Shown here: one piece after another, positions 6,776-61,663 of the stretch
How positions within the stretch are numbered: position 1 is the first letter of the stretch
Layout: each line of letters starts with the position of its first letter
NCBI RefSeq assembly: GCF_964355755.1
Contig: NC_092673.1
Location: forward strand, 25,425,001 to 25,489,000
Reading direction: 5' to 3'
Source of the DNA: Antedon mediterranea
Taxonomy: Eukaryota; Echinodermata; Crinoidea; Comatulida; Antedonidae
Length of the DNA stretch: 64,000 bases
Translations under genes and position numbers: made by a program
The notes under the pieces: generated by a model
The model's input: the letters and a program-made list of their open reading frames with translations, nothing else
Told to the model about the DNA's origin: nothing
Databases searched by the model: none

Positions 6776-9700
6776 ATGGCTACTAAAGGGACGGAAGTTG
6801 TCCTATTGTCCACTCTCCAATATAGGAAGGAAACATTTGAACGCCGTGAAACAGTAAAACAAGTGAGTATTAAAATTTATGTAGGCCTACTTCTAAAATT
6901 ATATAACACAAGTTTAGTGGTTTAAAAACCACCTTGTTTTAATTATGTTTTGTTAATTTAGCATATTGTTTACATTCAGTTGAATTTAAACATGACTGTT
7001 ATTGTGTTATCACCTACTTAACAAAAGAGCATTAACATCGTTAACAACATTTGGAGGCAGGCTAATGAGTTCAATAGTTTGAGACCTGTTATCTGATCCT
7101 CTTGGTTAAAGCCAAGAATCAGCTAACATCGTCTTGTAACTAGACTAACTGTTAGATTTTATTGTATATTAATTACATAATATTTAATTTTAGCCGGAAG
7201 AAAAAGTACAAGCAGTACTGCTGAACAATGGAAATATATCAACCACATTCAAAAGTTGTCCTAGTAGTGGTTCATCAATTTCTCTGTGCGAGAGCGAGTG
7301 CATTTCGATCTCTAAACAGCAGGGAAATAGTTACACATTGTATATTGATAATTCAGAATTTCAAATTCAGCTTTCATCCTCGAAAAAAGCTTTGATGAAC
7401 CAATGGTATGACACTGTAGTTGAAGTTTTGAACAATTTAGGTTTCACCTTTGCGATGGAGTATGATCCTAAAATCAATCGCAAAGTTGCACTACTTAAAC
7501 AAATTAAACCAAAATATTCAAAGTTGAAGAAAAAACTGACGAAAACACTAAGTGATCCAACATCTGGCATGACTTCTTATAAGGTAAGTCGATTTCAAAT
7601 TTAGATGAAATAATTAAAATGTTATGCCTAAAAATACATACCATAAATAGGCCTAAATAATGTGGTAACACGAACATACTGTTAATTGTATAGACATTTA
7701 CTGCTAAAGCGTGGTTCCCACTAGAACGCAACGCAGCGACGTATCGACGCAAGGTGCTGTATTGCGTAATCACAAGTGTGAAGAGACGATGCACTAGTAG
7801 TGCTGCAAACGTCGTAGGTTTAATTTCACGCAGGCGGGTGAAAACACAATTATTGGAAGGGCATTGGGACACAAGTAGAGGGGGAAGGAAAGGTGTGGAA
7901 ATGTTCAATCTCAAGATATATCTACATCCATTTTTTTACAGGCCAGTTATTCAACAATACCACCCAGTGATATACACAGTCCTGAGTATCAGTATGGCAT
8001 TTACAGACACCTACCAAACACACCGTCAAACAAATACCAAAATGAAGAAACAGATTTTGAGGTATACGAGCCAATTTGTGATAAAACAACACAAAACAAT
8101 ATATATGGAACCGACAATGAATACCTTGACATAGTAGAGGGTAAAAACCTGGAGCAGTTTAATTATCAACCAGATGCATATGTCACAGCAGAACATGGAA
8201 ATGTTTGTAATAAAGCTGCAGATGTGGGTGAAAGAGTTGGTAATGTTGGAAAGCGTACGAAAAAGCTGAATCAGCAAGTCAAGCAAAGAGTACAAGTTTC
8301 AATTGATAAGAAGAAACTAGACAGCAGAAAAATAATTCTGTCAATGTTGCCTGGTAACTGCTTTTTGTAAGTTCCATTCTCCTAGTCCATTTGTTGGCGG
8401 AACGTCTATCAATTCTGCTGAATATAATTATTTTTCTGTTTAAAAAAATTAATTAAAACTAAAACAAATAACAAACGTTCAAGACAAAAGAAATTGATTA
8501 ATATTATATATCAATCAATACCAAGTGAACTGTCGGTTTCTATGGTCTCTCTAGCCTAGAGTTTCTCTTTAGACATCCAAGCAACAACGGTAGCCCAAAT
8601 CGTTTTATAAAAGCAGATTGACCACATACATCACCAAGAGTGGTTCAATAATATAATATTGTATGACAGAACTTTCAATTTCTATTTTTGTTTGTCAAAT
8701 ATAGCATTGCATCGGTGGACCCTTCGCTTAAACATGACTTGTATGAAGGTGACATGGTGATGACCATCAACAACCAACGTATAGACTCCGTTGAAGAAGC
8801 CATGAAATATATACAGAAAACAGATAAGGGATCGGTAAAGTTCATAACTATCAATATAAAAAAATATTACTTAATCATTACAACTTCCACACAACTATTA
8901 ATTGACTGAAAAATTTGATTATACCACGAGATGTATGTAGCTGCTACAGTATTACGTATTAAGGTTGGTTCCCACTAGCAAACGACGCAACGTAAAAAAA
9001 TGCCTTTTTATACTATAACAAAAAAGAAAAAGAAATGTTAATTTTAATTTATTCGTTCTTTATAGGTAGAGATGGAACTTATTCGACTTCCTTACGCTGA
9101 GATTGTGACTATTCATCGACCAGAATTTAAAGTGAACCTTGGATTCAAACTAGATAAACGGAAGGTTGGTCTTAGATTTGTAAAGGATAAGAAAGATAAA
9201 GACTACAACATATATTAACCTATAGTTTAGTTACGAGGTCTACCTGTATACATACGCAAATGTTAAGGATTTCTACATCTATGCACAACATTATCAATTG
9301 TAGGTTGAAAGTGTAGAAGAAGGTGGACTGGCAGGAGTTGCAGGTTTGCGAAAACAAACAATGAAGGCGACTCAATTTGGTGGAACGACTAGTAATTGCA
9401 TAACATTCATAAACGAATACCCTCTTGACCGACACTGCACTCCAGCACAAGTAAGTATATTAACATCCACTCACAGATGTAAGCCTACACAATATTGTGG
9501 TAAAAGTAAACCTAGTCATCGCCAAATTTGACAATAATTCATGAAGATAAATCCTCAAAAAACATAACACTAAATCATGTATAAAAATACTATGTTCATG
9601 TTAGTAACCGTTTGATAATTACTGTAAAGCTCTGTCTCCACTATCAAACTTTATGTGACAACAAAAATGTGATGTGCCCATAATATGGACAGCCTCGTGA

Positions 9701-10426
9701 ATAAAAATACTGAAAGATGAGGGCGTATCAATTTGATCTCTGGTGCGCGTGCGTACAACTGAGGACTATAGTGCTGTTCCGCCGTACCACGCCGAGAATG
9801 TTAAAGAGTCGCTATCCAATCGAGTTCGAACAATACCATGAAAGCCCCAGTGGTCTAATGGTTAGGACATCTGCATATCAAGCAGGCGGTCCGAGTTCGA
9901 GTCTCGGTTGGGGCGACTTTTTCTCATTCTCACAGATTTCCTCATCTTTATCGTTTCAAATTAATTAATTAAATTTCAGTATATCACCGGGCGGTTTAGA
10001 ATTAATGTTCTGTGCCTGATTTGTTTATATATATATATATATATATAATTTTGAACGATAAAGATGAGGAAATCTGTGAGAATGAGAAAAAGTCGCCCCA
10101 ACCGAGACTCGAACTCGGACCGCCTGCTTGATATGCAGATGTCCTAACCATTAGACCACTGGGGCTTTCATGGTATTGTTCGAACTCGATTGGATATATT
10201 GGATATATATATATAATACTATACTATCGTGTCGTATCGTATTTTGGCACATCACATTTTTTGTCACATAAAGTTAATAGTGTAGACAGTACTTAACGTT
10301 GTTTTCTGTTTTGTATTACAGACCGATATGTTGTTAATAGAAGATCGTGGTGTCGTTACTCTTGTTGTGCAACCTCTTGATTTAATAAAGTATCTTGAAC
10401 AAGCAGTCGATTCGACAGAAGAATAG
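6776..10426 (+). CDS. PH-like, tyrosine-linker, twin-PDZ adaptor-like protein, paralogue B
   Basis: Complete gene, 460 aa. Coding exons are 6776-6862, 7194-7583, 7942-8366, 8705-8834, 9066-9164, 9304-9450 and 10322-10426 (stop TAG), total 1383 nt with consistent phases. The ATG 6776 gives MATKGTEVV; the exon begins at an AG at 6753, and a 5' UTR exon may end at the donor after 5853. Residues 30-159 resemble a PH/PTB fold, with the helix signature NQWYDTVVEVLNNLG. Residues 160-300 form a linker with tyrosine motifs, including YEPI (Y201) and YLDI (Y220), that resemble SH2-docking sites. Residues about 273-365 (YEGDMVMTINNQ) and 365-450 (VNLGFKLDKRK) look like two PDZ domains. The donor after 9164 (GTTGGT) is weak; reading through it reaches a stop within 17 codons. 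A signalling-scaffold role is inference. Confidence 0.8.
7706..7866. mobile_element. MITE family 1, subtype B, 5' fragment
   Basis: Starts TAAAGCGTGGTTCCCACTAG, then contains GTGCTGTATTGCGTAATCAC and a CTGCAAACGTCG / TTTCACGCAGGCGGG block that matches the full subtype B copy at 26728-26928. It stops without the opposite end. It sits in the intron before the tyrosine-linker exon of paralogue B. Confidence 0.7.
8961..9005. mobile_element. MITE family 1, short terminal fragment
   Basis: The 5' end only (AAGGTTGGTTCCCACTAGC followed by GACGCAACGTAA), in an intron of paralogue B. Confidence 0.55.
9626..9693. mobile_element. MITE family 2, left half (interrupted)
   Basis: Begins TAAAGCTCTGTCTCCACTAT, the family 2 end, and continues to GTGATGTGCCCATAATATGG, the normal centre of the element. 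The matching right half is at 10241-10293, so the 0.55 kb between them was inserted into this copy. Confidence 0.75.
9844..9915 (+). tRNA. tRNA-like sequence (loop reads AUC), probably SINE head or pseudogene
   Basis: Folds as a cloverleaf. The acceptor stem pairs GCCCCAG with TTGGGGC, the D stem GTCT with GGAC, the anticodon stem TCTGC with GCAGG, and the T arm CCGAG-TTCGAGT-CTCGG. Box A TGGTCTAATGG and a box B-like AGTTCGAGTCT are intact. The seven-base loop ATATCAA places AUC at the anticodon, which would read Asp GAU; eukaryotic tRNA-Asp normally has GUC. The odd anticodon, the mirrored second copy and a tail shared with 55331-55392 favour a SINE head over a working tRNA gene. Confidence 0.5.
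10094..10165 (-). tRNA. tRNA-like sequence, inverted second copy
   Basis: Reverse-complement copy of the tRNA-like sequence at 9844-9915, with the same stems, boxes and AUC loop. It lies in the right arm of the palindrome. Confidence 0.5.
10241..10293. mobile_element. MITE family 2, right half (interrupted)
   Basis: Resumes with GGCACATCACATTTTTTGTC and ends ATAGTGTAGACAGTACTTA, completing the family 2 element begun at 9626. Confidence 0.7.
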
Positions 10427-10602
10427 AAAGTATCGTCAATGTGTATAATACTGTATTATGTAAATTATGCTGATAATGGATACTATAGTTTATCCATATT
10501 TAAAAATGACATACCTTTTCCAGCTAAGAATACCTAACTTAATAATCCAGAAACAGTTCTGTATATTACTTCGTTAACTTGAAATCGTTGTTGGTGGTAG
10601 TT

Positions 10603-10735
10603 AACAAGGCCATATACATGGCTGCAGTCGCGTGCTCAAATTTGAGTTAGTGTTTACCGACAGGCCGACCAACCGACCGACCAAACCGACCGACATAGTA
10701 AGTTGTAGAGTCGCGTTTGCATGCAACTAAAAAGA
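10603..10735. repeat. Stem-loop repeat with (CGAC)n core, copy 4
   Basis: Close match to the copy at 3127-3258: AACAAGGCCATATACATGG, then GTCGCGTGCTC, a short CCGAC array, GACATAGTAAGTTGTAGAGT and a degraded right end. It lies 177 bp after the stop of paralogue B; copy 1 lies 236 bp after the stop of A. Confidence 0.75.
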
Positions 10736-11441
10736 AAATATCTGCATGATGTGTACTTGGAAGCAAAATGGACGGTTAATTAATTAATTTTTTAACAGTA
10801 TTATGATAATAATTAAATATTAAATACCATATGTTCTTTCCGTAATACGCATTCCTATAAAGTACGTAAGTTGCATTTTTGTTTCATCTTTTAATTCATA
10901 CATAAACAATTATTAATGGGTTTTGTTAAATGCTGGATCGTTAGTTTACAGACTTTTTTTTCTGGTAAAGAGATATTAGGCATAATTATGTATGATGTAT
11001 TTTTTTCTGAACGCAATAGGCCATAATGACTTACTAGCTAATATTATGCACAGTGCTGTTTTATACATTTCTGTGGAAATAAATTGAAATTCTTGTAATT
11101 TGAGTGGAATTAAAGGATCCTATTGCATATTTTCTTGTAGTTTCTCTTTCTATCTCTTTTTGAAGAAAAAGCTAAGAGTAGCGTGAGACATCATCAAGTC
11201 AACACAACGTTTATTGCGCCCTCTTGTATCAGACTGCAAAACAATATCGAAGCCAAGAGTTATGGATTAGTAATTTTGGGTACGGTTATTTACTATAATC
11301 CTTGGTCTGTGATTTAGAATTGTAGGTATTTTTTATTACACCAGAGCCAAAGCAGTTGATTAATAATAGTGTATATATAGTTAACTTATTATTTATTCAC
11401 ATTTTTGTATATTTTTCTTCATGTCTATTTAGGCATATGTA

Positions 11442-14400
11442 AATTTAAAGCTGTAGAGGAGCAGTAAGACAAGTGAGTATTTTGCAGTACTGCAGTAGGC
11501 CTACAGCAGTCCTACTCCGAAAATGTGTGAATCATTAATAAATAGTTGTTTAAAAGAAACATCAATGCTTGTCGGACTACTTATGTATACCTATAATAGG
11601 CTACCGGTACTAACTTGCTTCATTTCAGACCCCATGTGCTACAACCCACCAAATAACGAAAAAACCTCTATATCTATCCCGCGAGATTATTTACAATCAG
11701 TGGTCCTACGCTGGTAGGACCCTTCACAAAGCATCATGCAATTAATTTAGTTCATACATTTTGTATGAAATAGGTCTTTCAAACTATTTTATTTGATTTA
11801 ATTTCAGCCAAAAGAAGAGGTCACTGTAATATTGTTGGACAATGGACATCTTTCAATCACTCCTAAAAGTGGTCTTAGTGGTCCATCAATCTCTCTGTGT
11901 GACAGTGAGTGTATTTCGCTCGAGTCAGGTGTAGTACTTATTGAATATCAAGATTCTAAAATACATCTGTCATCCCCCAAAAAGATTTTGATGAACAACT
12001 GGTATGACACGGCTGTCGAAGTTTTGAACAATTTAGGTTTCAACTTTCCAATGCAGTATGATCATAAGAATAATCGCAAAGTAGCACAACATAAACAAAT
12101 TAAACCAAAACAATCTTCAAAACAACCAAAGAGAAAACTTTCAAAGGTATGTAAACATTCCTTTACACAACAAACCCTCCCCCCCCCCCCTCTATTTTTT
12201 AAAAACATAATCCTAGCATGAATATTTATACATATTATTGAAGAGGAGGGGAAATACCTTTGCATGATTGTTATTATAGAATGTGCGTATGTACAAGGAG
12301 TTTGACTGATATATTGAAATTATTGTGTTAAAAACCACTGAGATGGAAGAATCAACACGTTTCAGTATAAAGGGTTTTGTGTGAAATAATCTAGACTGCT
12401 TAACCTCATATTGTATTTAGCCAACAAATTTCGTTTGTTTTGTTTTGTTTTTCTTTTTTAAGGCGCTTTTTTGTTGTTTGTTATTATTTATCATAAGAAA
12501 AATAAAATGAAACTAGTATGTAGGCCTATTCGTGTTTTTCAGGATATTAATCAAGCAGCATCCAGTGATGGTAATGCATATTATAATTTTGGCCCACTAC
12601 CAAATATACCGACAAAAAAACCAGACGAGATAGATGATCTGTTCGGCTCCTATGAATACGAAGCAATCAGCGAATATTCTGAGCATCCCGAAGAAAGATA
12701 TGAACCCATCGATGAATATCAACAAGAAGATGTTATCCATACAGATTCCAGAACAAAATTGATTCAGCAGGTCAAGCAGAAAATCAAAATTTCAATCGAA
12801 AAGAAGAAACTAGATGGAAAAATAACTCTGTCAATGAAGAAAAATAGACACATTTTGTAAGTATCATTTATTTTTCCAAGAATAAAAAATAGCACTAACA
12901 AAACAAATATTGCGAGTGGCGGATCACACATTAAACGGACAATAAACACAAATCATGTTATAATAGCACTAAGTCAAAATGTGTTCCTCTATCTCCTCTT
13001 AAACCGCAAGTCCAATACTAGCGCCGGGCACCTTTTATTTCTCTTTATCCATTAGTCTATATTAGAACGGTAATTTGTACAAAAAATTTGGTTTTAGACC
13101 AATTTCTTTGCAACAATCCTCGGCCGTTTCCCCGCTAGTAAAATCTATTGAGCATGCAATATACAATTTAAGAGCACCACACGGGCAGCATGTCATCGTC
13201 GAGCGAGCATGCAATTGGCGACCATGTTGAATTATTTTTTTTAAATGGAAAAATATTCTCAGCTCATGTTCCCATTATTTATTAAAAAATACATAAGAAA
13301 ATATAATACATCAATCAAAGTACAATATTTGTGAACAGGGAAAACAACTTTCTGTCTTCTCTAAGACTACACAGATTCTCCAAACAATTGTGGAACAACT
13401 TATATGATTGGTTAAGTTTTTGTTTTAAAATAGTATCGCATCGTTGGATCCTTCACTTAGACACAACTTGTATGAAGGCGATATGGTGTTGACAATCAAC
13501 AACCAACATATAGACTCCGTTGAAGAAGCCATTAATATATACAGAGAACATGTATAGCAGTGGTAAAATTACTAATTATTAATTTATAAAAATACTGTAT
13601 TTCCTTTGTATTATTATTATAGTAGTATTATAAGCAGTGTGACAGAGACTAAAATCTTACGCCGTAAACATTTTTGTTTTTACGATCCAATTGAAGTGTG
13701 TGCGCAAATATGTACAAGATTGGGTAAATGTTAAAATATGCTTTAATCTATTATAACAATAGGCCTGCTAGTTTTAAATAAGGTATTTCAATATAGGTTG
13801 AGATGGACATCATTCGACTTCCTTACGCAGAGATTGTGCCTATCTATCGAAAAGAAACTAATATGCATCTTGGTTTCAAACTGGTAAAACGAAAGGTGAG
13901 GGTTTACCTTTATCAGGATTTATTAAAACGAAAATACACTTCGGCCAACAAAAAATAAACTGTTTTTTAAATTGAAAATGTATATTTGTTATATTAGAGC
14001 TTTATAGCTAAGACAGGAAAACAAATCTGTGCCAGGAAAAAAATGTAGGGACTACTGGAGTGTATTTTAGAATTTTCTAAAACGAGGCACAACTATGATC
14101 GTAGGCAATTCTTAATTTCACCAACTGCAGGTTGAAAGTGTAGAAGAGGATGGACTGGCTGGAGTTTCAGGTTTGCGAAAACAGACAATGAAGGCGACTG
14201 AATTTGGTGAAACAACAATTAACTGTGTAACAGCCGTAAACGATTACCCTCTTGGTCGACACGACACAGTGAGTAGTCTCAATAAAAAATGTCGCAAATT
14301 TGAAATAATAGAATAATTGAATTTTGGAAAAATGTTTTTTTTTTATGTTTTGTATTACAGATCGATGACTTGATAAAAAACTTTAAGTTCATTACTCTTA

Positions 14401-22164: not shown

Positions 22165-25100
22165 ATGCAGGAGTGTTGTCGAATACTACTGGTTCTTTTT
22201 GCGTTGGTGTCATTATCTACAGCTTGTTTTTGGAGGACATGTCCTGTAGGGGGAAAACGAACAGCGTTTAGGCCCTTAAGACAGGTAAAGTTTAACAATT
22301 ATATTTTTTTTTAACTATTACTAATATTATAGTAACGTTTCATTAAGATTTTATTTTCTTTAAATTTAATGTTGAATAAATTGATTTGAAATGGCAACAA
22401 ACTGTATTATTTACTTGTTTTTAAGCTCTCGATTATTAATTTTTTCTTCGTCCATCAACTTCTTATGGTGAACTACAAATATATTTTTTATCTGATTAAT
22501 TATATTTCTAAAGAATTATGCCTTTTAAATGTTAAATTTGTTTATACATTTCTCTATGGATGAGAACGATCTTTTGCTAAGACTTCTTTAATTCTCATTG
22601 AATCTTGATAAATTAATTGTTTAGCATCATATCATACATCTGGTTCCACAGAAACATCTTAATTCTTCAAGCAATTACTTTATTATTATCTAATAATAAT
22701 CCTTTTTTGTATAAATCTCAATAGACTTGAAAACAAAAATATCTAATACCATCTTAACTTCAAGTATCACAAACAAAGACATCCAATCATAGAGATTAAA
22801 TGACGTAATTCAGTCTGTTATTTTGATTTATTGAATACAAACCCGTAATGAATATGAACGAATATCTCCCTCTACAACGATCATACAGTAAGTTGCTTGG
22901 AAATTGTTCTCTATTTATACCTTTTGATACAAAGCACTGTAAAAGCACGATACATAATGTAATATAATTTTATTTCGCACTCACCATCGATAACCGGTTA
23001 AAAGGCCAATGTACGGTTCTCGAGAAAATAATATTTCCGTCGTGGTCAAAAAAGGGTAGGAACGGAGATTTAAAAAAAAAACACGTTCTGCATAAAAGAA
23101 AGATTAGCCTTTATCTTGTAAAAGTACTACTAAATTTAGGAAGACGCTTTTCATTTTATGGTTGGTTGTTGCCGTCAGCTGCAGACACGATACTCAGTCT
23201 GACGATACGATACTTCAAGCTGTTCTTGTCGCCGATATCATAGAACCGTGCGAGATTCAACTGTTTATGGGTAACATTAGGTCTACCCTTATGATAGAGC
23301 GCATCATGCCAAAGTTATCGCTCGAACTGTCACTTGCCATTGTTCAACTCGTTCGCGTTACGCTTACAGACGTCCTTGCGTTGCGTCCATAGAACCAAGC
23401 TTTAAAGAGAAGAACATGTTTTGCGAACATGTTTTGTTGTTGTTAGGCCCACGTTTTCGGATGTACATTAGATAGTTACCAATAGGAATGTGGAGGCAGA
23501 GTAACATTAAGATGACATTAGAGTTCGTTTGGAGTCATAGCGTTTATGAATTCTGTGAAACTAGGTATATTTCCAGAATACTTGTCACGAATTATTATTC
23601 TAACATTCACAGCAAGAGCCTAACAGCACGATATATAAACAAAGGAAACAATTATTACGAGAAATTTTAAAATGTTAAACTAAATAACAACGACCGTAAT
23701 TCAGGTAGTATTATTAATCAATATTTTACACAAACAAAACAAGCTATATAAATTACGAGCACTAAAGAATCATATGGCAAATTATACCTGTAAGAGAAGA
23801 TAAACCATTTTCTTAACCTTTCAATAAGGTAATAATTCGCTTAAATGACGTACCTCATGTACTGAACTCTGTGGGCGTTCTTGATGGTAATGGGTAATGA
23901 AAATTGTGTGATGCTACATAACAATAATACTTTACAATACTGTTGTAACATCATGTTTTAATCAAAGCTTCATGGTGTGAAGATTCATTAAACCGCGTGA
24001 TGGATCGGTACATTGTCGGATCGTTTATAAATACAGTAGTAAAAAAATACACTTTTAGCGATCTCTGCCAATCTACCGTACATGATATTGATTAAACAAA
24101 CCTGGTAAATTATTGTTATAAATTATTTTCTAAGCGAAAAGCGATGTTAAGTTATTTCAATCACACGGGTGTGTTTTTACTTTTGTTACTATATTGTACA
24201 TTTCCGCGTACCGCGTTTCCATTTCGTGTTTTAAATTTCCCGCCCGCTATCTAACATTGACTAAAGTTCATAAACATGAGACGTTAGCCAAAATATAACA
24301 CTTCGACAAGGCCAAAATATTTTTATATCAAGCGGTTGGTATAATGTACATAATACATGATACAATGGTATACAATTACAAAGTGTACTTTTTTATTTAA
24401 GGGTATTTGAGGTAAAATATCTCGTTATATTCTAATTATATTACGTTACAGTGGATGCACTTGGTGGTAATGTTTGGTTTAACCGGTCATATGTCCTCAA
24501 TAGCCGACTGCACAAGAACACCCCATAAAATATACTACTATTATCAATGACTTTATGCTATAATAATGTTACCCAAGTCGGCTGTATAAAATTATATAGT
24601 TATTGACAAAAGCCTAAAGCGTAAGGTTACAAGTCATTATCCCCATAGCAATGTTGTTTCAGAAAATTATGATTGAACTTAATAGTCAGTTTTATCATGT
24701 TTTTTCGAGCTCGTCCTCTGGATAACCTTTTAAAATTCTCCTGACATGATTTTAAAAATATTGTTATTATGTATTATGGCCTAACATTATAACATAAAAA
24801 AAATGTATACGTCGCCTTCATAATCTTAACTGAACTGGGGATTGTCATTTTGTGTTGATACATACGGTATCAATAAAGCTTGGTTCCCACTAGGACGCAA
24901 CGCAAGAACGTAAGCCGCAACGCCAGGACGTAAGCCGCAACGGAAGGACGTAAGCCACGACGCAAGGACGTAAGCCGCAGCGCAAGGACGTAAGCCGCCA
25001 CGCAAGCAAATTGACCAATGAGTGCCTTTTAATAAATGTGTGTAACATCGTATTGACGGTTTCTAAAAATGTTCGTGCCATAAAGATTTTTAAGGGCACA

Positions 25101-28100
25101 TCACATGCACTGCAGACAATATAATAAAGTTACCGTAATATTGTCGAAGAGTGACGTCAATATTTGAGGGCAATATAGCTCCGGGAAATGTACCAAGGTT
25201 GATACTGTGATATATAAAAACAAATAAATAATGGTATTAATTAATTAAAACACATTATAGTGTTATTGCTTTAGTGGTTTACTGGCGCACGTGTCGGGCC
25301 GTAGAAAAATGGGCGTTTCCTAGCCTATGAGGGAGTATACGCGTGGCCTAATGAATCTTTCCCACGTATTGTTCAAAAGGTTGACCAAACACGGATGTAT
25401 TTGGCTTGCTTTGCTATTGTATTATATGTGGTTGTTGTAACAAAGGTTGATATCAAGATAGACTATATCAATCAAATCTATATTTTTAATCAACTTATTC
25501 AATGAAACCAATCCCACAGGGAAAATTAGCCACTGTTCGCTAAGATTTGTACCGCTAATTTATCGAAATGGGTCTTTTAATCACGCGTGCGTTGAATCGT
25601 TGATTAGCAAATGAAATTTAAGATATTATTTTGATATATATTTCCATACTTGTTTACGTTTAGCTGTTTTAGGCAATACAATCTTGTATTGTGTTTGTAG
25701 TTAAAGGTTACTTCGGGGATTAAGCTTTCCACTATCGACGTAACGTAACGCAATCTACGTAACGTAACAAAATGCCTTTCTAATAATTGTATTTCCTCCC
25801 GCCTGCGCGCGTGAAATCAAACCTTTGATGTTTGCAGCAGCACTGTTGCGTCATCGGTGGTATAGAGGAACTATACACTATTTATCATGCCTCGGAGTTT
25901 TATCTATAATTTCAAACATTAACGGAACTGAAGGCCCTAATTTTTCAAATGTTTTGATAACTTATTACTCTAACGACCAGTAAAATTAGGATATCTGTAG
26001 GCCTATTTATATATTACATTTTTAATTGTCTATGGTTTTCAACACTCTTATATTTTGAGCAGTGAACTTTTCTATCAAAATAAACTCTCGGTTACGTTTC
26101 AATTTGTTATTTAATTCACAAATGTAAATTCATTAAAGTATCGCAAAACGGCATGGACTGTACAGTAGGCTACTGTACATCATAACCAGCTGGTTTGTGG
26201 TTTATGAACGTGAATCTGGAAGCTTGGTTCCCATTAGTGACGCAACGTAACGTAATCTACGCAACGTAAGAAAATGCCCTTCCAATCTTAGGGTTTGCCC
26301 CCGCCTGCGTGAAATCAAATCTACGATGTTTGCAGTACTATTGCGTCGTCGGTTTCCACTTGTGACTACTCAATCCATCACTTTGCGTCAATACGTCGCT
26401 GCGTTGCCTTCTAGTGGGAACCACGCTTTAGCAAACAGCCTGAAAACAATTTGGGACCACATATAGTAAAATGTTTTTATATTACATGACAACCAATATT
26501 TATAGGAGTAAAGTATATAGTATTAGTAATTCACATTGTTTAGCAACTCTTGGGAGTGTCGTACGTAATGCTTATTAAAGCTTGGTTCCCACTAGGACGC
26601 AACGCAAGGACGTGAATTGACCAATCACAAGAGCGATGGATTATTCGAACTGACGCTTTTCTCAGTAGTCGACACGCTTGCGTTTCGTTTACGTCTTTGC
26701 GTTGCGTCCTAGTGAGAACCAAGTTTAAGCGTGGTTCCCACTATGCAGAAAAATATTGACGCAAAGTGCTGTATTGCGTAATCACAAGTAGGAACCGACG
26801 ACGCAACATTGCTGCAAACATCGCATGTTTGATTTCACGCAGGCTGGGGAAAACACAATTATCGGAAGGACATTTTCTTACGTTGCGAGGTTGCGTTACG
26901 TTGCGTCGCTAGTGGGAACCATGCTTTAGTAAAAATGATTTCACGTCAAATTGATGGCAAATAAGAATAAGATGCGTATACTACACAAGCAATGATTGAA
27001 AAGGATCTATGCGGTGACAGGATGTATAAATCAGTACGTCTATATAGATCGTAAAATGTGCTCATCAAATGTCAGGTCTTACTGTACCTGTTTACTCTAT
27101 TCAATTTTTACATTCATGAATAAAAAACGCTATATTCGTTAGAATATTAAATATAGGTCTATAAATTCTATAAAATGACTCATGATTCGATAACATTTGA
27201 TTCTTATCACTAAATTAGATAATAATTGTCTGATGATGTCATAACAAATGTGTATGTATTGAATGTGCAATTGGTATGTAGGTGATGGCTCTCCAAACGA
27301 TGGAGGCATTGGGCGTTTTGAGCTTTTTCGGAATATTTTCATACCTGTTTGGCACTGCCCATGGGCCCCCTTAGCCAGTAAAGCTTGGTTCTCACTAGAA
27401 CGTAACGCAAGGGCGTAAACGCAACGCAAGCGTTTTAACCAATGACAAGCGAAGTTATACTAGACAGTAAAGCTTGGTTCCCACTAGAACGTAACGCAAG
27501 GACGTAAACGCAACGCAAGCGTTTTAACCAATGACAAGCGAAGTTATAGACAGTTAGCAATCACAAGCGAATAAGCCATCGCTTGTGATTGGTCAATTCA
27601 ATTGCGTTGCGTTACGTCCTTGTGTTGCGTCGCTAGTGGGAACCACGCTTTAGCAATCACAAGCGAATAAGCCATCGCTTGTGATTAGTCAATTCACTTG
27701 CGTTGCATTACGTCCTTGTGTTGCGTCGCTAGTGGGAACCACGCTTAAGCGCTCACGCCATTGTGTGTACTCATTATTTGTCGGAGTACTGTACTTTTGT
27801 ATTCTTGGCGTTTTCGGTTTACAGTATAAAAAGTATACAGTAGTACTGTAAACAAAAAATATTTGGGGCAAAGGTCGAACTGTAATACGAGGGAACGAGT
27901 CTATGTTTGGTGGTAGAAGCAAGGACCTAAACCGCAACGCAAGCCAGTTGACCAATGACAACCGATAATAATCGCGCGCCTGAAGGTGATTGGTCAAATA
28001 ATTTTCGTTGCGCTTACGTCCTTGCGTTGATATGAATGAATAGAATATAGATAATCAAAACGCATAAGATACTATATTGTGTGGATATAGATTACGTATT

Positions 28101-31100
28101 ATACCCAAAAAATCGTTTATGTTAATTTTATGAGGAATACCATGTTAATGGATAGTTTATTGCATAGGTTATATTTGGTAAGGTATGAACGCTTGCAACA
28201 AAGTAGTCATTTAATTGATTTGTTGCAGTCGACATAGGCAAAATGTCTTATGGCAAAGAAACTTGTACAACAAGGGTATTGTTAGCTCAGTTTAATACTT
28301 TAAGTAAATGTCATGACATCGCATAATTCACACACGGCTTTATTCATAACAAAACAGTTTTTTTTTGTTCTTTAAAAGTATTAATTTTATTTTACTGTCT
28401 ACAGTACGTAAGGGCACATCGTAGCGGGCTGCTATTTGAATACTTCTTTGAACTACCTTGCGGCTCAGTGTGGTTTCGATTTAATTGCCGTAATACATAT
28501 GTATAATAGTTTTTGGAAGGCCGGTATTATATTCCAAAAGCATTTTATTATCTAGATACACATTTTCTTATAAACTATCCTGATAAACTGCTGACTATAC
28601 CTATTTACAAGACAAATCAGTTGCAAAAAAAGATAACATGTAATTAGTCGGTAGCCATGGACTTTCCTGCAGAATTTCCTGAAGATATCTGCCAATCCAA
28701 ACGTTTATTAATAAACTAAACAAACTAAACTAAATAATTATTATTCATAACGTATCTAATGTGTGTGATTTAATGTAATGCCGATGCACTTTCAATACAT
28801 AAAGGACGCAACAGAAGGTTCGAAACAGTCCTATCACATAAGTTGATGATGATTGTAATAATACTAAATTAATGTATGTGTCTAGTAATTAATTTTTTTT
28901 TATTTTAGCTTAAGTCATGATTTGAATAGGTGACTGATTTTATAATTATTTATGTGATACTTTATTTTAAATCTATAGACAAAATTGTAATTGTACGCAT
29001 TTCATCCTTTGCCTGCCTTACTGTAGGTTGTATTAAGTTTATGAATGAATGAATTTAACATTCATAAATTAAAAATATATAGGCCTATATATATATATAA
29101 TTATAAAGACATATTAAGAGAAATATTTAGGCATTGAGACCTATATATATGTGTGTTCATTAACCACAAGGGATCAGGCTGCAAAACCTTCAATCCATAT
29201 AATGGAAATGTTGAGATGTAAAAGAAATCTGAAAATACATTAAGGATATAGGCCTACACCCTAACGAGAGTCAAGAATGATAATGGAATTAAATACATCC
29301 CATCGGTGTGTTACATTTGAGTGTATGTCGGATGATGATAATTGCATGTTATTATTTGTGGTATGATAATATAATGATAACAATGCAATGCATACGGAAT
29401 ATTATTATACGATTTATCAAATAATACGTTGATAATTACATTAAAGTTACAATAATATATGATATATACATACACCATTTATATTGCGCCTTATCGAAAC
29501 ATTTCAAGGCGCATTGCAGATTAAAGCTATTAGTGTTAATAATAATGGTGGTGGACGAAGTTCATGATAGGGCACGATGACGAAGGCCCCTGGTATAGCA
29601 TTCCTCCAACACCGGGTAGTTGCATTGGACTGCTCATGCTCTGCGGCCCCTTGAGCTATGGGGCCCCTTGAGCTCTTGGGCCTCTTGGTTTGAGTTTGGT
29701 TCCCACTAGAACGCAACGCAAGGACGTATGCGCAACATAAGCGAGTTGACCAATGACAAGCCACTGTTCGAATCGTTTGTGACTGGTCAAATCACTTACG
29801 TTGCGTTAAGTTCCTGCGTTGCATCGCTAGTGGGAACCAAGCTTTAGCAGTGAGCGCCACTGATTATAAATATTATTGTACTGAAAATGTATTAATGATG
29901 TTATTATTAGTGATAGTATTTAAAATGTAATAGTATTTAAAATAATTTTATCAGGTAGTGGAGACACGTTTTACGGAATTTATAACTATAACAATTTATT
30001 TTCATTTAAAGTGTTAGTTAATGATGTAATAAAGGCGCCAGATATTTTTATCAGTAGTTAGTTGACATTTAAATCAATTGTACTTACAGATTGTAAAGAG
30101 AAAAGAAAATGGTCAAGAAATGAGTATTTATTGCCAAACAGTCATTCGTTTAATTGTTTTCAATTGTCTGGTTTTTTTAGACGAATACAGAAAACAGTTA
30201 AAACCATTGTGACAATTAATGTTTTACTGGTCTTTAAAAAAATAGAAAGAAAAACACAATCAACTGCTTATGTGTCTCCGGTTGATTCTATTTGAAAATG
30301 TTTCTAACAATTCTAATATCAATCATAATGATTCAATCCATCAAACTATTCGACATGACATGCAGTAGATACCCTAGGCTCCTTTGGAATACTGTACCCT
30401 AATGCAAGGGAATACCAATATTAAATAGACACTCTCGTTAACGAGCATGGAGCAATGCGTTCGTTTTAAAAATATGATTTAAGACGATGTCGATTATTTA
30501 AACATCTTCTATTATTTAAATTAAACTGTATTATATTTATTAAATTGGGAAAAGGTGATTTAATAAATGGACTTATTTGTATTTCTTTTTTTTTTCGCAG
30601 TGTCCAAAATGTGGACCATTTGAAGGTGGACAGTGTGTAGGGCCTTTATTATGCTGTGGTGAATCATTTGGTTGTCATTTAGCCACGCCAGATACACTGG
30701 TCTGTTCCGAAGAAAGTCGTCTTTCTACACCTTGTACTGGACTAGAGTTGCAATCAAGTTGTCGATCTGTAGAGGGCGGAAGTTGTGCTACAAGTTATAT
30801 TTGTTGTAATGAAGGTAATGAAGGCGGGATATTTAATTTGAAATAAAATAGTGTGTATAGTTTTTCGTTTTAGTTTATTCATGAACATTTACATATAGGT
30901 CTATAGTTTATTAATCATTATTTTAAGGAATTATCGGTGAATGACGTCACGAATTTTGCTGCAGTTATGCTGTGCTGTAGCTAAGTACGGCTCTCAGAAT
31001 CGGTACCACGGACGATCACTGCACCAGGCGCCCATTTCAAGAAACCCTGAATCCTTACTTTTTTAGCCTAGGCCTAACCCACCTAACATTTAAAAAATCA

Positions 31101-32265
31101 AAAGTAGTCTAGGCTAGGCCTACTATATAATGCTACTACAGACCTGAAATAAACTGAACGCTGTAAATAAGGTATACCTACAAACTCTCTAATCTAGCTC
31201 TACTGGAGGTTTGGCTGTGTTACGGCCTGGTCAGCCTCGCTCGGAAGCCCATCCTCTCTACCACCCCTGCTAGGCTCTACCCGCAAGCTAGCCTATGGCC
31301 TAAGACTTTTTATTTTTTAGATCTTACTAGCTTTTTAACTTACGTTTTACGTAGATGAACATCACTATATGCTAGTCATTCACAATCACATTTTAAACAG
31401 GGCCTATTATGCTATAATATTTTCCAAGAAGATTTATTTTCAGCAGCAGACGATAATTGACACGATTAAACGTCGTAAACGTCACGAATAATTTATTCAT
31501 GCGTATTTTTGTGAGAAATGGGCGGAGCAACTAAAAATTATATAGAGAGACGCACGTTGCCTGGGGTAAAGCTTGGTTCCCACTAGAACGTAACCGTACG
31601 CAAGGACGTGTACGCAAGGACGTAAACGCAACGCAAGCGTTTTAACCCATGACAAGCGAAGTTATAGACAGGTAGCAATCACAAGCAAATAAGCCATCGC
31701 TTGTAATTGGTCAATTCACTTGCGTTTCGTCGCTAGTGGGAACCACGCTTTAGGGATGAAGTCACGTGTTGCGAAGGGTTTATGGCGGTTTACACGTTTT
31801 AAAACGAAACTCATTTAATAACATTACGGAATGGTAAAACGACGAGGATCGACTGACAATCGTAAACCGCAACGCAAGCGAATTGACCAATCAAAAGTGA
31901 TGGATTATTCGAACTCGTGATTGGTCATTTCACTTCGTTGTTGCATCAAAGAAAGTGGGAACAAACCTTATTAAGTTTTAAAACATGCGCAGCGCAAGAG
32001 CATAATTTGACCAATCACGACGCGATTGATCATCTATCGCGTCGTGATTGGTAAACGTTGCGTTGCATCCTAGTAGGGAACCAAGCTTCATAGCGTCTTT
32101 CTGAAATACGACGTCTTTCTAATAAGTGTTTTTTGTATTTTATTTACAGATACGTGTGCCATAGATTATTCTTGTGAGAGTGGTAGAATATCAAACTCAC
32201 ATTTACCACAGGAAACGTCAGCAAATCGTCAACTTTGGGACGCGTTTGTTAACGCAAACAACTAA
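22165..32265 (+). CDS. Vasopressin/oxytocin-type neurohormone-neurophysin precursor
   Basis: Complete three-exon gene, 149 aa. Exons are 22165-22284, 30601-30814 and 32150-32265 (stop TAA 32263-32265), total 450 nt. Intron 1 is phase 0 and intron 2 phase 1, both GT-AG. Residues 1-20 form a signal peptide with a hydrophobic core (ILLVLFALVSLS). The hormone follows at residues 21-29, CFWRTCPVG, with Gly30 as amide donor and Lys-Arg 31-32 as the cleavage site. Residues 41 on are neurophysin. All 14 conserved cysteines are visible (CPKC, QC, LCC, GC, VC, PC, SC, SC, ICC, TC, SC). Neurophysin carries the hormone through the secretory pathway. The ring Cys1-Cys6, Pro7 and Gly9 are canonical; Trp3, Arg4 and Thr5 are unusual. 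Intron 1 spans 8.3 kb and is rich in MITEs. Confidence 0.96.
23330..23402. mobile_element. MITE family 1, 3' fragment
   Basis: CACTTGCCATTGTTCAAC, then ACGTCCTTGCGTTGCGTCC and AGAACCAAGCTTTA, matching the right end of family 1. In neurophysin intron 1. Confidence 0.65.
24877..25035. mobile_element. MITE family 1 copy with internal 18-bp minisatellite
   Basis: Begins TAAAGCTTGGTTCCCACTAG. The subterminal motif has expanded into about six 18-bp units of the form CGCAAGGACGTAAGCCGC (about 24895-25003). It then reads AAGCAAATTGACCAATGA, where the right half breaks off. Confidence 0.8.
25722..25860. mobile_element. MITE family 1, subtype B fragment
   Basis: Reads ATTAAGCTTTCCACTATCGA, ACGTAACGTAACGCAATC, then CGCGTGAAATCAAACC and GTTTGCAGCAGCACTG. 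It is subtype B in reverse order relative to 26728-26928, and its far end is lost. Confidence 0.65.
26221..26430. mobile_element. MITE family 1, subtype B, full copy
   Basis: About 210 bp between AAGCTTGGTTCCCATTAG and CTTCTAGTGGGAACCACGCT, with the subtype B interior (CCTGCGTGAAATCAAATC, GATGTTTGCAGTACTATTGC). No coding capacity. Confidence 0.85.
26577..26727. mobile_element. MITE family 1, subtype A, full copy
   Basis: About 151 bp between TTAAAGCTTGGTTCCCACTA and CTAGTGAGAACCAAGTTTAA, with the subtype A interior (GACCAATCACAAGAGCGATG). Directly abuts the next copy. Confidence 0.85.
26728..26928. mobile_element. MITE family 1, subtype B, full copy
   Basis: About 200 bp between GCGTGGTTCCCACTATG and CGCTAGTGGGAACCATGCTT. 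It is inserted end to end with the subtype A copy just before it, suggesting a preferred target in the element ends. Confidence 0.85.
27378..27750. mobile_element. MITE family 1, nested or tandem cluster of copies
   Basis: Two left ends (27380 and 27471) and two right ends (about 27650 and 27750), all of type GGTTCCCACTAG, with repeated AATCACAAGCGAATAAGCC blocks. It is best read as copies inserted into each other or duplicated by unequal exchange. Confidence 0.8.
27918..28030. mobile_element. MITE family 1 fragment lacking clear ends
   Basis: Interior of subtype A: AACGCAAGCCAGTTGACCA and TTACGTCCTTGCGTTG. The terminal GGTTCCCACTAG blocks are absent. Confidence 0.55.
29692..29848. mobile_element. 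MITE family 1, subtype A, full copy
   Basis: Ends GTTTGGTTCCCACTAGAAC and GCTAGTGGGAACCAAGCTTT. Interior CGAGTTGACCAATGACAAG. About 157 bp, in neurophysin intron 1. Confidence 0.85.
31566..31754. mobile_element. MITE family 1, subtype A, full copy
   Basis: TAAAGCTTGGTTCCCACTAG at the left and GCTAGTGGGAACCACGCTTTA at the right, about 188 bp. It lies between neurophysin exons 2 and 3. Confidence 0.85.
31858..32093. mobile_element. MITE family 1, two degraded copies
   Basis: 31858-31972 has AAACCGCAACGCAAGCGAAT and ends AAGTGGGAACAAACCTTA. 31985-32093 has AGCGCAAGAGCATAATTTGA and ends AGTAGGGAACCAAGCTT. Both have lost one terminal block. The second ends only 56 bp before neurophysin exon 3. 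Confidence 0.65.
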
Positions 32266-35399: not shown

Positions 35400-38300
35400 T
35401 CAGAAATTGATGACCCCAAAGAGTGTTGGAATCATTCTCAGTCCATCTAATTGCCTTTGAAGTGCAGCGCCATACGTCTGCTGGTTTTTTAGTTCTTCTT
35501 CCTGTTTATAAATTGTATTCTAAAACAAAATATAATGATAATGAAACAGTATATACAGTATAGCAATTCTGTATATGCAATCTGGAACTCAAATTTCAGG
35601 AAAAGTCAAACGGGGTGGTGTCAAAAAGTTTGGGTGAGTAAGAACACATGGGTACATGTTTCTTGGGTGGAGGTATGTTTAAATTAAGCTGAGTGGATGG
35701 TTGGAGGGGGTGGAATACTTTGTAGGTGCCTTTGGGTATCACCCACCTCTGCTCAGAACAATTATATCTATGCGTAGGAATAATATAGGACAAACAATAG
35801 CAAATAGTAATAGCATAAAACATACCTGTAAATCTTTTAAATCTCGATTCAATATCATGTTAAGTTCCATCATTTCTTCTTGTCTTTTTCTCAAGATTCT
35901 CATTTCTAGCTCTCTCGCTGAAAAAAACACAAATCAAAACAAATTAATGTTATTATACTTTTTGTTTTTAAATTGATATTTTACTTCCTTTACTGTTCTG
36001 TACTTTACTGTTCTGTACTTTACTGTTCTGTACTTTACTGTTCTGTACTTTACTGTTCTGTACTTTACTGTTCTGTACTTTACTGTTCTGTACTTTACTG
36101 TTCTGTACTTTTTACTGTTCTGTACTTTACTGTTCTGTACTTTACTGTTCTGTACTTTACTGTTCTGTACTTTACTGTACTCTACTTTACTGTTCTGTAC
36201 TTTACTGTACTCTACTTTACTGTTCTGTACTTTACTGTACTCTACTTAATACTGTTCTGTACTTTACTGTTCTGTACTTTACTGTTCTGTACTTTATTGT
36301 TCTGTACTTTACTGTTCTGTACTTTACTGTACTCTACTTTACTGTTCTGTACTTTACTGTACTCTACTTAATACTGTTCTGTATTTTACTGTACTCTACT
36401 TTACTGTTCTGTACTTTACTGTACTCTACTTAATACTGTTCTGTATTTTACTGTACTCTACTTAATACTGTTCTGTATTTTACTGTACTCTACTTAATAC
36501 TGTTCTGTACTTTACTGTTCAGTCTGTACTTTACTGTACTCTACTTTACTGTTCTGTACTTTACTGTACTCTACTTAATACTGTTCTGTATTTTACTGTA
36601 CTCTACTTAATACTGTTCTGTACTTTACTGTTCTGTACTTTACTGTACTCCACTTAATACTGTTCTGCACTTTACTGTTCTGTATTTTACTGTACTCTAC
36701 TTAATAATGTTCTGTACTTTACTGTTCTGTACTTTACTGTACTCTACTTAATACTGTTCTGTACTTTACTGTTCTGTACTTTACTGTTCTGTACTTTACT
36801 GTTCTGTATTTTACTGTACTCTACTTTACTGTTCTGTACTTTACTGTTCGCTATTTTACTGTACTCTACTTAATACTGTTCTGTACTTTACTGTTCTGTA
36901 CTTTACTGTTCTGTACTTTACTGTTCTGCATTTTACTGTACTCTACTTAATACTGTTCTGTACTTTACTGTTCTGTACTTTACTGTACTCTACTTAATAC
37001 TGTTCTGTACTTTACTGTTCTGTATTTTACTGTACTCTACTTTACTGTTCTGTACTTTACTGTTCGCTATTTTACTGTACTCTACTTAATACTGTTCTGT
37101 ACTTTACTGTTCTGTACTTTACTGTACTCTACTTAATACTGTTCTGTACTTTACTGTTCTGTATTTTATTGTACTCTACTTAATACTGTTCTGTACTTTA
37201 CTGTTCTGTACTTTACTGTTTTGTACTTTACTGTTCTGTACTTTACTGTTCTGTATTTTACTGTACTCTACTTTACTGTTCTGTACTTTACTGTTCGCTA
37301 TTTTACTGTACTCTACTTAATACTGTTCTGTACTTTACTGTTCTGTACTTTACTGTTCTGTACTTTACTGTTCTCTACTTTACTGTTCTGTACTTTACTG
37401 TTCTGTACTTTACTGTACTCTACTTTACTGTTCTGTACTTTACTGTTCGCTATTTTACTGTACTCTACTTAATACTGTTCTGTACTTTACTGTTCTCTAA
37501 TTTACTGTTCTCTAATTTACTGTTCTCTAATTTACTGTACTCTACTTTACTGTTCTGTACGTTACTTACATAAAACAACTTTGAAATTGATATGGTGCTT
37601 TCCAAAGATTATAATATTCAAAATTAGTATACATTGGAGAAATAAATGTTAATGAAGCTAATGTGTTTTTTCAACTTTTAACTATTATTTTAATTTTATT
37701 CTCTTGTTTCCTCCTGATGATTCCAATACAAATCCCTTGCCCTCTATCTGTTTATTTTTTTAGACACGTTATATTGTCTGAAGAGTTTGTTTTGAATTTG
37801 AGGATAATGAATGTAAGGATATGCTGTTATGCAATATTTTCAGAAGACTAATTACAAATACTGCATATTGAAACAACTCTTGTAAATTTTAATTCAAATT
37901 GTCATTTATTCTTATTTTTCTCTCTCAAGATTCTCATTTCCAGATTTCATATCCATTCCAAATCACCTTCAGGGTTTAATTTTGAAAAGAGGAAGCCTCG
38001 AGATGTTTGTAAAAGCATTATAATACTATTTCTTTGCAATTATGGAATTACTTAGAAGAATCAGAGTATTGTATTAAATTAAAAAAAAAACACTGTAAAG
38101 TAACCTCTGGGCAGCTTAATTTTTTCAAAACACGAACAAAACACAATTTACTAATTTATATATCTTGGGATTGTCTTAAAACTAAATCACATAATGTGAT
38201 GTACATATAATTAAACAACACAAATAATGAGTAAGTAGTAGACCATGTATTGTTTTATGTAAAATAAAAAAGAGGAAAGCTGAGGTGTAGGCCTATATAT

Positions 38301-44300: not shown

Positions 44301-47300
44301 GGAATGACTACTTCTCAGCTATATAAAAAATAGATAGTTGATTAATATTTAACTGGCTATTATCAGTTTTTTTATAGTCTATTGATAGGTTACTGGTAGC
44401 CCTTGTATACCTATAATACTGTAAGTAGACAGTGGATAATGACACTTATAGATTTCTAATAGGTATCTGGTGGTTCATATCTATCTATTGTATAAAATAG
44501 ACAGTTTATTAGCAGTTTTTGGCTATTATCAGTTTGTTTATGTCTATAGACAATAGACAGATGTATAAAACTGTGTTATTCAGAGATTAAAATTAGTGAA
44601 AAATCTATCTAATACTATTAGTGGGAGATTGAATTATGCTAAAATAATGAGGTAAAACCTATTAGGAACTATCTAAATTCTACCTAAAATCTACTTATTA
44701 GTAGGTACCTTAATAGGTAATAGAGCTATCTATTAAGGCGATAATTATAAGGCTAATAGATATAGAGCTATAAGACTTTTTGTTATGAGCCATATTTACA
44801 TAGACCCTTCGGATCTCATGAGAACTTATGGGCCGATTTTGAGAACGCCCTGACTAAAGCTCCGTCTACACTATCAAACATTATCTGACAAAACATGCGA
44901 TGTGCCCATATATGATGATGTCATGTCACTACCATATTTGGGCACATCAAACTTTTTTTGTCAAACTAGTTTGATAGTGTAGACAGAGCTTATTAGTCAC
45001 CAAAAACTTACCCACTAAATTCTTGAATTTTTTTGCTGCTTGTTTTTTCATCAACATCTGATATAAATCAGTTTGCTGAAATGCTTTTAAATCATTGATA
45101 TACCGTCTCTTGTCAGATTCTGCATTTTCTATGTATTTCTAAAAAAAAACAATCAACATTAACTACTACTTTAATAAATGCTTATATTATAATTATATTA
45201 TTGACAGTCAGCATGGCTCCATATCAAACAATTAAGCCTCTTATATTATAAACTGTATATCCCTAATGCAATGTACAACAAGTACAAGTTTTACAAAATA
45301 CATGCCAACATCTTAAGTTAATTAAATGGGAGGTGGTTGATTTTAAGCTATTAAATTCCACACCATATCCATTGATGTGAGGGAGCGCAGTGAAAAGCAG
45401 TACCATAGTGAATATGTGAGGGAAACCCTTTCCCGCAAAGGAAACTTTTTTTTTTTGCGCAGATGGTCGTAAAATATAGAAAATTTGCTAGAAGATTTTT
45501 TAACAATATTTGATTACAAAAAACAACTCATACATTCAGGTATTCTTGTAACCATTGTAATATAACGATATACTTTTATATTTAAGAAATTGACCTTTGT
45601 ATCAGAATTCAAATAGGTTCACAAACTTGACCCAGAAAGTCCAGAGGAGAGTTTGTCCAGATGTTTTAATGACCATTTAGTTTATAATAGAATCCCTAAA
45701 GAAAACACTTAGCTTAACTTTGTGACTGTTCCCATCGTAAAACAATTAGATATTGACAGTTTTAAGCAGAGATTCGACAGGGCCAATTCATCATTGTAAC
45801 CTCCCCAGATAAGATCAATCACTCCCACTTAAACACCCCTGGATCAACTTAGGACCAATCGTTACCCTCACAGATTACGTAGTGACATATGCAAATGAAC
45901 CGAGGGCCAATATACTCCCAAGTTTCAGAAGGGCCCAGACACACCTTACAGCCACCTCACGGAGCACACACCTTACAGCCACCTCACGGAGCACACACCT
46001 CACAGCCACTTCTTCAGAAGCAGACCTACACACTTCACACCTCACCGACAGCATCATTGATCCTCCGTTCCTTATCTATACTTATAGTTGTATATTGTAC
46101 TGAAGTATTATACTGAATAAACAATATATGTGTTACGACAGTCAAGCGAGTAAGAGTCTTTCATTAGTACCTCAACAACCCAAACATTATATTACATGGT
46201 GGAAGACCCAAATTTCATAAGGAACAGAGTGAGAAAACAGAATAACAAGAAAACAAGAAATAAACACTTAACAAGACACGAAGACGAAGACGAAGACAAA
46301 AATAACCATATTTGTTTGAAAGGAGAAAACCAGAAATTTACTTTGACTCAAAAGACAAGCTGAAATTATATTTGAATGAGATCGAGACAAGCAGAAATTA
46401 TATTTGAATGAGATCGAGACAAGCTGAAATTATATTTGAATGAGATCGAGACAAGCTGAAATTATATTTGAATGAGATCGAGACAAGCAGAAATTTTATC
46501 AAATTATAACCATTGGATAAAGACAAAGAAGATAATCGAGGAAGACCCAAGAAGAATCAAAACAGAAGCAAGCGGACAAGAACTGTTTCGTTTGGACACT
46601 TTCAACTTCACGCCGTTTTTTTTCGATCGTTTTTTTTAAGATTTACTTTTTTTTGTGACCATTTTGAACATTGATGAACACCTTTCGCATTTTTTTTGAA
46701 TTCGTTGTTTGAAAATTTGAACATTGATGAGCACTTTAACATTTTTTTAATTCGTTGTTTGAACATTTAAACTTTTTGAACACTTTTTGCATTCCTTTAA
46801 TTCATTTTTAATTGGATCCGAAGCATTTGGGGTAAGTCAAAACCATTTTGATTTTAGATTTGTAACCTTGATTGAAAAGTGAGAGTTTACATATATACAC
46901 ACTAAAATTGTTTTTTAAATTGTTAAAATAATTGTTGAATAAACCCACCGATAATAATGAGAAAATTCAGAACACCGTTAACGTAGTAAATGACGAAAAC
47001 AATGTTTAATTTACCGACGAACATGATAGGACACCCACCCAATTGCAATCAGATACCCTTACACATCCAACTAAAGTAGAACCCCTTAACTTGCAACCTT
47101 ACATTGACTGTGTAGAGAATAACATGGGATTAGCAGCCCCATTCCAAATGAAAGAGGAACAAATTAAGGAACAAACTAATCTAATTATGACAGCACCTAA
47201 TGATTCAAATATGACATTAAACCGAGGTAGATTTAAAGAAGGACATTTCCAAGTTTTAGTTTCGTATTCTAAACCGACTTCAGCCAAACGCAACACCGAT

Positions 47301-61377: not shown

Positions 61378-61663
61378 TCAGCTTAAACAATGTATCCCCT
61401 TAAACAAAAATAGACCATTATTTATCCTTCATATTCTACCACGTCATATCGCAGACCTGCTGTGTGTGTATAATAACGTCAGATAAATTAATAAAGTATT
61501 GTTCTATCTCACAAATGGTGGGATGGCGCGTTAATTGTAAAGTTACGCAACACGTACCATCTGTTTCAACGACGTACAATAAACCTGTAACATCCACTAA
61601 GCAAATACACTTTTTTACTCATAAATCATTTCTCAACGTGTAAATAGTTTGGATACTATTGAA

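Follow-up and report, generated by a model that had tools for sequence, protein, structure and literature searches.

Does a cysteine-ringed nonapeptide encoded in the window, by which we mean the whole 64,000-nucleotide stretch of Antedon mediterranea DNA analysed here, belong to an intact vasopressin/oxytocin (VP/OT)-type precursor gene, and how unusual is its ring? The locus is that of a crinoid, and crinoids are sister to all other living echinoderms. Direct translation of the forward strand at 22225-22260 gives CFWRTCPVGGKR, that is, CFWRTCPVG and then GKR, exactly as the preliminary description of this DNA had claimed. The peptide is already known: Aleotti et al. 2022 (PMC9793003) reported crinotocin, CFWRTCPVG-NH2, as a VP/OT-type peptide of this feather star, with a precursor of 149 residues that includes neurophysin, and crinotocin is also mentioned in PMC10532012. 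Its sequence, its expression in nerve, and its action on arm movement have been in print since 2022, so the peptide is not new and adds nothing new to the family; the exon coordinates on the chromosome are new relative to that work.

Exon structure of the crinotocin gene

The coding part of exon 1 (22165-22284, forward strand, like all features of this gene) runs from an ATG start codon at 22165 through a leader, MQECCRILLVLFALVSLSTA, to the nonapeptide with its Cys1-Cys6 ring (22225-22251), which is identical to the published A. mediterranea peptide (PMC9793003). The leader places 20 residues, hydrophobic as judged by eye, before Cys1. Next come a glycine and a Lys-Arg pair (22252-22260), which by analogy with the family would serve as amide donor and dibasic cleavage site, and then eight more residues before a phase 0 donor, GTAAAG. 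A search of the animal's own genome recovered exon 1 (match at 22165-22287). Predicted intron 1 (22285-30600, 8316 bases, phase 0) leads to exon 2 (30601-30814), which encodes neurophysin with 12 of its 14 cysteines, starts in phase 0, and ends in phase 1 at a GTAATG donor. Beyond predicted intron 2 (30815-32149, 1335 bases, phase 1), exon 3 (32150-32265, acceptor TATTTTATTTACAG) supplies the last two neurophysin cysteines, a C-terminal tail, and the stop codon. Both predicted introns have GT...AG borders, with phases 0 and 1, and the predicted spliced precursor has 149 residues from three coding exons.

Exon 3 was sought between 30801 and 50000 with a pyrimidine filter and a requirement for at least two cysteines, giving 14 candidates, 4 of them in the required phase 1. 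The acceptor at 32150 is the nearest of these four, reproduces the Cys-x5-Cys spacing seen in neurophysin II, and yields the published length of 149; the other three phase-1 candidates, unlike it on proximity, spacing, and length, were rejected. The coding exons can be read directly from the DNA, and their splicing is predicted from sequence.

The diagnostic features of VP/OT-type precursors (Cys1-Cys6, Pro7, Gly9, and then Gly plus a dibasic site) are all present in CFWRTCPVG-GKR. Position 5 is Thr, the common but non-defining Asn5 being absent from the nonapeptide. The Trp3-Arg4 pair that marks crinotocin is present, as is the full A. mediterranea sequence CFWRTCPVG, and the predicted gene product is a VP/OT-type precursor with an unusual ring.

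We also surveyed other open frames of the window, scanning 10 of 67 with Pfam: seven were without a family at E values up to 0.01 and three matched, none of them tied to crinotocin. One match is an exon similar to Fam20C kinase (56963-57238, forward strand; PF06702, E = 7e-09, above the cut-off). Open frames near it look by eye like possible parts of the same gene, and the nearby frames 55445-55696 and 61625-61996 have no Pfam match. Also on the forward strand, frame 7194-7601 resembles frame 11802-12218 by eye, and parts of 7879-8370 resemble parts of 12462-12857; between them, at 8667-8906, a PDZ domain is weakly matched, with a score under the curated cut-offs. The similar frames across 7194-12857 perhaps represent a tandem duplication. 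A long repeat occupies 35922-37573, where several frames read as CSVLY/TVLYF repeats. Forward-strand frames 45813-46103 and 48631-48915, about 2.8 kb apart, are alike by eye over nearly their full length, which suggests a local duplication or a dispersed repeat.

Neurophysin domain and copy number

The predicted precursor contains 14 cysteines downstream of the dibasic site, 12 in exon 2 and 2 in exon 3. It matches the Pfam family Hormone_5 over profile positions 1-79 of 79 (E = 3.4e-18, 66.7 bits against a cut-off of 27.2), and this is the sole Pfam family in the spliced precursor at E values up to 0.001. A search against PDB returned eight matching sequences at E values up to 0.001, all of them neurophysins, the best being neurophysin II (2e-15). 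The neurophysin match is far beyond chance. A complete 14-cysteine neurophysin, as proposed from the raw sequence, is thereby borne out, by way of the predicted splicing of exons 2 and 3.

Neurophysin alone is not decisive for family membership, because the sea-urchin NGFFFamide and echinotocin, two unrelated peptides, both come from neurophysin-containing precursors. The gene might accordingly be read as a neurophysin-bearing NG-peptide (NPS/CCAP-type) precursor and not as a VP/OT-type one. The shared domain is what such a reading has in its favor; against it, a Cys1-Cys6 nonapeptide with Pro7-x-Gly-GKR stands directly after the leader, the predicted precursor contains no Asn-Gly pair anywhere, including between leader and neurophysin, and the peptide itself was published as VP/OT-type (PMC9793003). 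We consider an NG-peptide precursor extremely improbable. No second neurophysin-bearing precursor, for example of the sea-urchin NGFFFamide type, was found in the assembly by profile or protein search, within the limits that gaps set on such an absence, and section 42 of PMC9793003 lists no neurophysin-bearing NGFFFamide-type precursor for crinoids.

The same searches bear on whether the VP/OT-type gene described here could be a pseudogene, a degenerate duplicate of a VP/OT gene located elsewhere. The Hormone_5 profile has one match across the assembly's 18 contigs, which total 354 Mb. The spliced protein, searched at E values up to 10, matches in three places, one for each of its own exons; identities there are 93-98%, which we read as matches overrunning the exon ends by a few codons. 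Neither search thus gives another genome match, an absence to be read with assembly gaps in mind, and all three exons are open, with GT...AG borders and the 14 neurophysin cysteines retained. We found no support for decay, and a pseudogene has next to no probability on this evidence.

Aleotti et al. also printed primers for two further neuropeptide genes of A. mediterranea (PMC9793003), and all four can be placed in the assembly as facing pairs. The calcitonin-type precursor (CTP) primers map to C7, separated by about 2.3 kb, the first with one mismatch and the second with none; the orexin-type precursor (OXP) primers map to C2, separated by about 0.46 kb, the first matching perfectly and the second with one mismatch. 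The second OXP primer is less specific, with an extra place at 2 mismatches and five matches for its reversed control; the controls of the other three primers gave none. These placements show the close kinship of the genome with Antedon.

A VP/OT-type receptor candidate

We searched the genome for a receptor with an approximate human oxytocin receptor query, obtaining at least 122 genome matches; in so large a family such counts are lower bounds, and a second VP/OT-type receptor may exist. The best match lies at C2:33218928-33219515 (E = 1.6e-40, 40% identity), and the next place, on C6, reaches 1.7e-25 and 30%. The C2 candidate spans 33218928-33223322 in at least two exons. One piece (33219657-33219818) was reported with a single TAA, and the open frame ends just there; we take this TAA to be overrun beyond the exon end. 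A downstream piece (33223212-33223322) carries ASLNSCTNPW, fitting the helix 7 motif ASLNSCxNPW of the human receptor query. When the C2 frame was compared with PDB, the best 12 of 767 matches were V1a, oxytocin, and V2 receptors (217-165 bits), with the next at 100 bits; the top match was a V1a receptor (3.1e-63), followed by oxytocin and V2 receptors. By sequence similarity the C2 gene is therefore a strong VP/OT-type receptor candidate, new here and the one strong candidate of the two places, C2 and C6, that were characterised.

The C6 locus (C6:2022854-2023660) was set aside as a VP/OT receptor. Compared with PDB, it scores highest against a GnRH receptor fusion (93 bits), narrowly ahead of V2, V1a, oxytocin, and MCH receptors, and shows no VP/OT preference. 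The locus holds one long open frame, encoding a peptide GPCR that falls close to the GnRH and VP receptors.

We are highly confident in an explanation that leads from a crinotocin precursor gene, found in single copy, through a processed neuropeptide and a VP/OT-type receptor to arm mechanics. The leader would take the crinotocin precursor into the secretory pathway; cleavage at Lys-Arg would free the nonapeptide, the following Gly would serve amidation, a Cys1-Cys6 bond would form the ring, and transport of the peptide into regulated vesicles would fall to the neurophysin domain. Crinotocin would then be released from neurons of the brachial nerve, where Aleotti et al. showed the transcript to be expressed (PMC9793003), and would act via a VP/OT-type receptor, the best candidate being the C2 gene at about 33.219-33.223 Mb, to alter arm mechanics. 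The effect on arms was shown in the same study: crinotocin altered arm bending dose-dependently, with the largest responses at 10^-5 and 10^-4 M, weak or absent ones at 10^-7 and 10^-8 M, and variation among preparations (PMC9793003). The effective doses of 10^-5 and 10^-4 M are high. Cloning of the crinotocin cDNA failed in that work, and a synthesised cDNA was used instead (PMC9793003).

The phrase "crinotocin receptor" is absent from the main text of PMC9793003, and we know of no paired receptor to report. Through the present analysis crinotocin gains a chromosomal position and an exon structure, and the genome that encodes it also yields one clear receptor candidate. We infer that the two may form a pair, and the main useful lead is that the receptor candidate makes crinoid ligand-receptor pairing directly testable.

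Ring residues, receptor pocket, and known peptides

To gauge the ring we used Table 1 of PMC7181382, whose 39 rows comprise 29 distinct peptides; it predates the crinoid paper and covers selected species, and is not a census. The family constants are nearly uniform among the 29 (Cys1 and Cys6, 29/29; Pro7, 27/29; Gly9, 25/29), and Asn5 occurs in 19. Trp3, Arg4, and Thr5 occur jointly in none of the 29 tabulated peptides; taken singly, Trp3 is found in 2, Arg4 in 8, and Thr5 in 1, with Val8 in none. Among the three crinoids analysed in PMC9793003, Trp-Arg at positions 3-4 is found in all and distinguishes them from other echinoderms. The three residues are hence rare as a set and known singly, and at positions 3-4 they are the described norm for crinoids. 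The preliminary description had called Trp3, Arg4, and Thr5 together unusual, which holds for the combination among the tabulated peptides and overstates the case in that each residue is known singly; it had also stated that finding these ring residues in many known relatives would count against its view, and for the Trp3-Arg4 part such relatives exist, in all three crinoids.

The closest of the 39 tabulated rows is cuttlefish sepiatocin, CFWTTCPIG, identical at 7 of 9 positions, and eight more rows, all molluscan or annelid and including octopressin, are identical at 6 of 9. In the text of the two papers searched, crinotocin was not seen to be compared with its cephalopod counterparts: octopressin is absent from that of PMC9793003, and the string "CFWR" from that of PMC10532012.

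The contacts of oxytocin in its receptor were described by Waltenspuhl et al. 2022 (PMC9293896), the main ones of ligand residue 3 being 5.39, 5.42, and 6.51, and the partner of residue 4 being 6.55. We mapped the 14 oxytocin-contact positions named there onto the C2 candidate and compared them with the human oxytocin receptor, with 7.40 located by its distance from the NP motif and the last receptor exon border set by eye. Eight of the 14 are unchanged (1.35, 2.61, 2.65, 3.32, 4.60, 6.52, 6.55, and 7.40), and six differ in the C2 candidate (2.57 Q to N, 3.29 K to M, ECL2 W188 to K, 5.39 I to V, 5.42 I to V, and 6.51 F to Q). All three residue-3 contacts are thus changed, and Gln 6.55, with which residue 4 interacts, is retained.

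As an addition to the VP/OT-type reading, the crinoid ligand and receptor pocket might have changed in parallel, in line with the co-evolved receptor that the preliminary description took the ring changes to imply, the Trp3/Thr5 ring having come to resemble the octopressin/sepiatocin type by convergence; with human receptors as the comparison, we regard this as a tentative and rather doubtful proposal. The rank of sepiatocin among the tabulated rows is consistent with convergence, as is the likeness to octopressin, though the score of the latter is equalled by seven other molluscan or annelid rows, and nine residues offer few positions, so that coincidence is easy. On the receptor side, the altered residue-3 contacts point the same way, and four of the six changed positions (2.57, 3.29, the ECL2 position, and 6.51) differ in printed alignments from human V1a and V2 also. 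Those alignments show Val at 5.39 in V1a and V2 and Met at 5.42 in V1a, with V2 departing at 2.65; because of the former residues, part of the pocket change is common.

Set beside known systems, the VP/OT-type precursor predicted here agrees with published A. mediterranea crinotocin in nonapeptide and precursor length, the two features on which they were compared. The peptides of Anneissia japonica and Florometra serratissima, known to us by their stated residues 3-4 (PMC9793003), have Trp-Arg there as well. Among cephalopods, a different phylum, sepiatocin shares Phe2, Trp3, and Thr5, and octopressin (CFWTSCPIG) shares Phe2 and Trp3; both have Thr4 for Arg4 and Ile8 for Val8. The eleutherozoan peptides echinotocin (CFISNCPKG), holotocin (CFITNCPLG), asterotocin (CLVQDCPEG), and that of Ophionotus (CLVSDCPEG) share Cys1, Cys6, Pro7, and the Gly9 amide with crinotocin but have neither Trp3, Arg4, nor Thr5, position 5 being Asn in the first two and Asp in the last two (PMC7181382).
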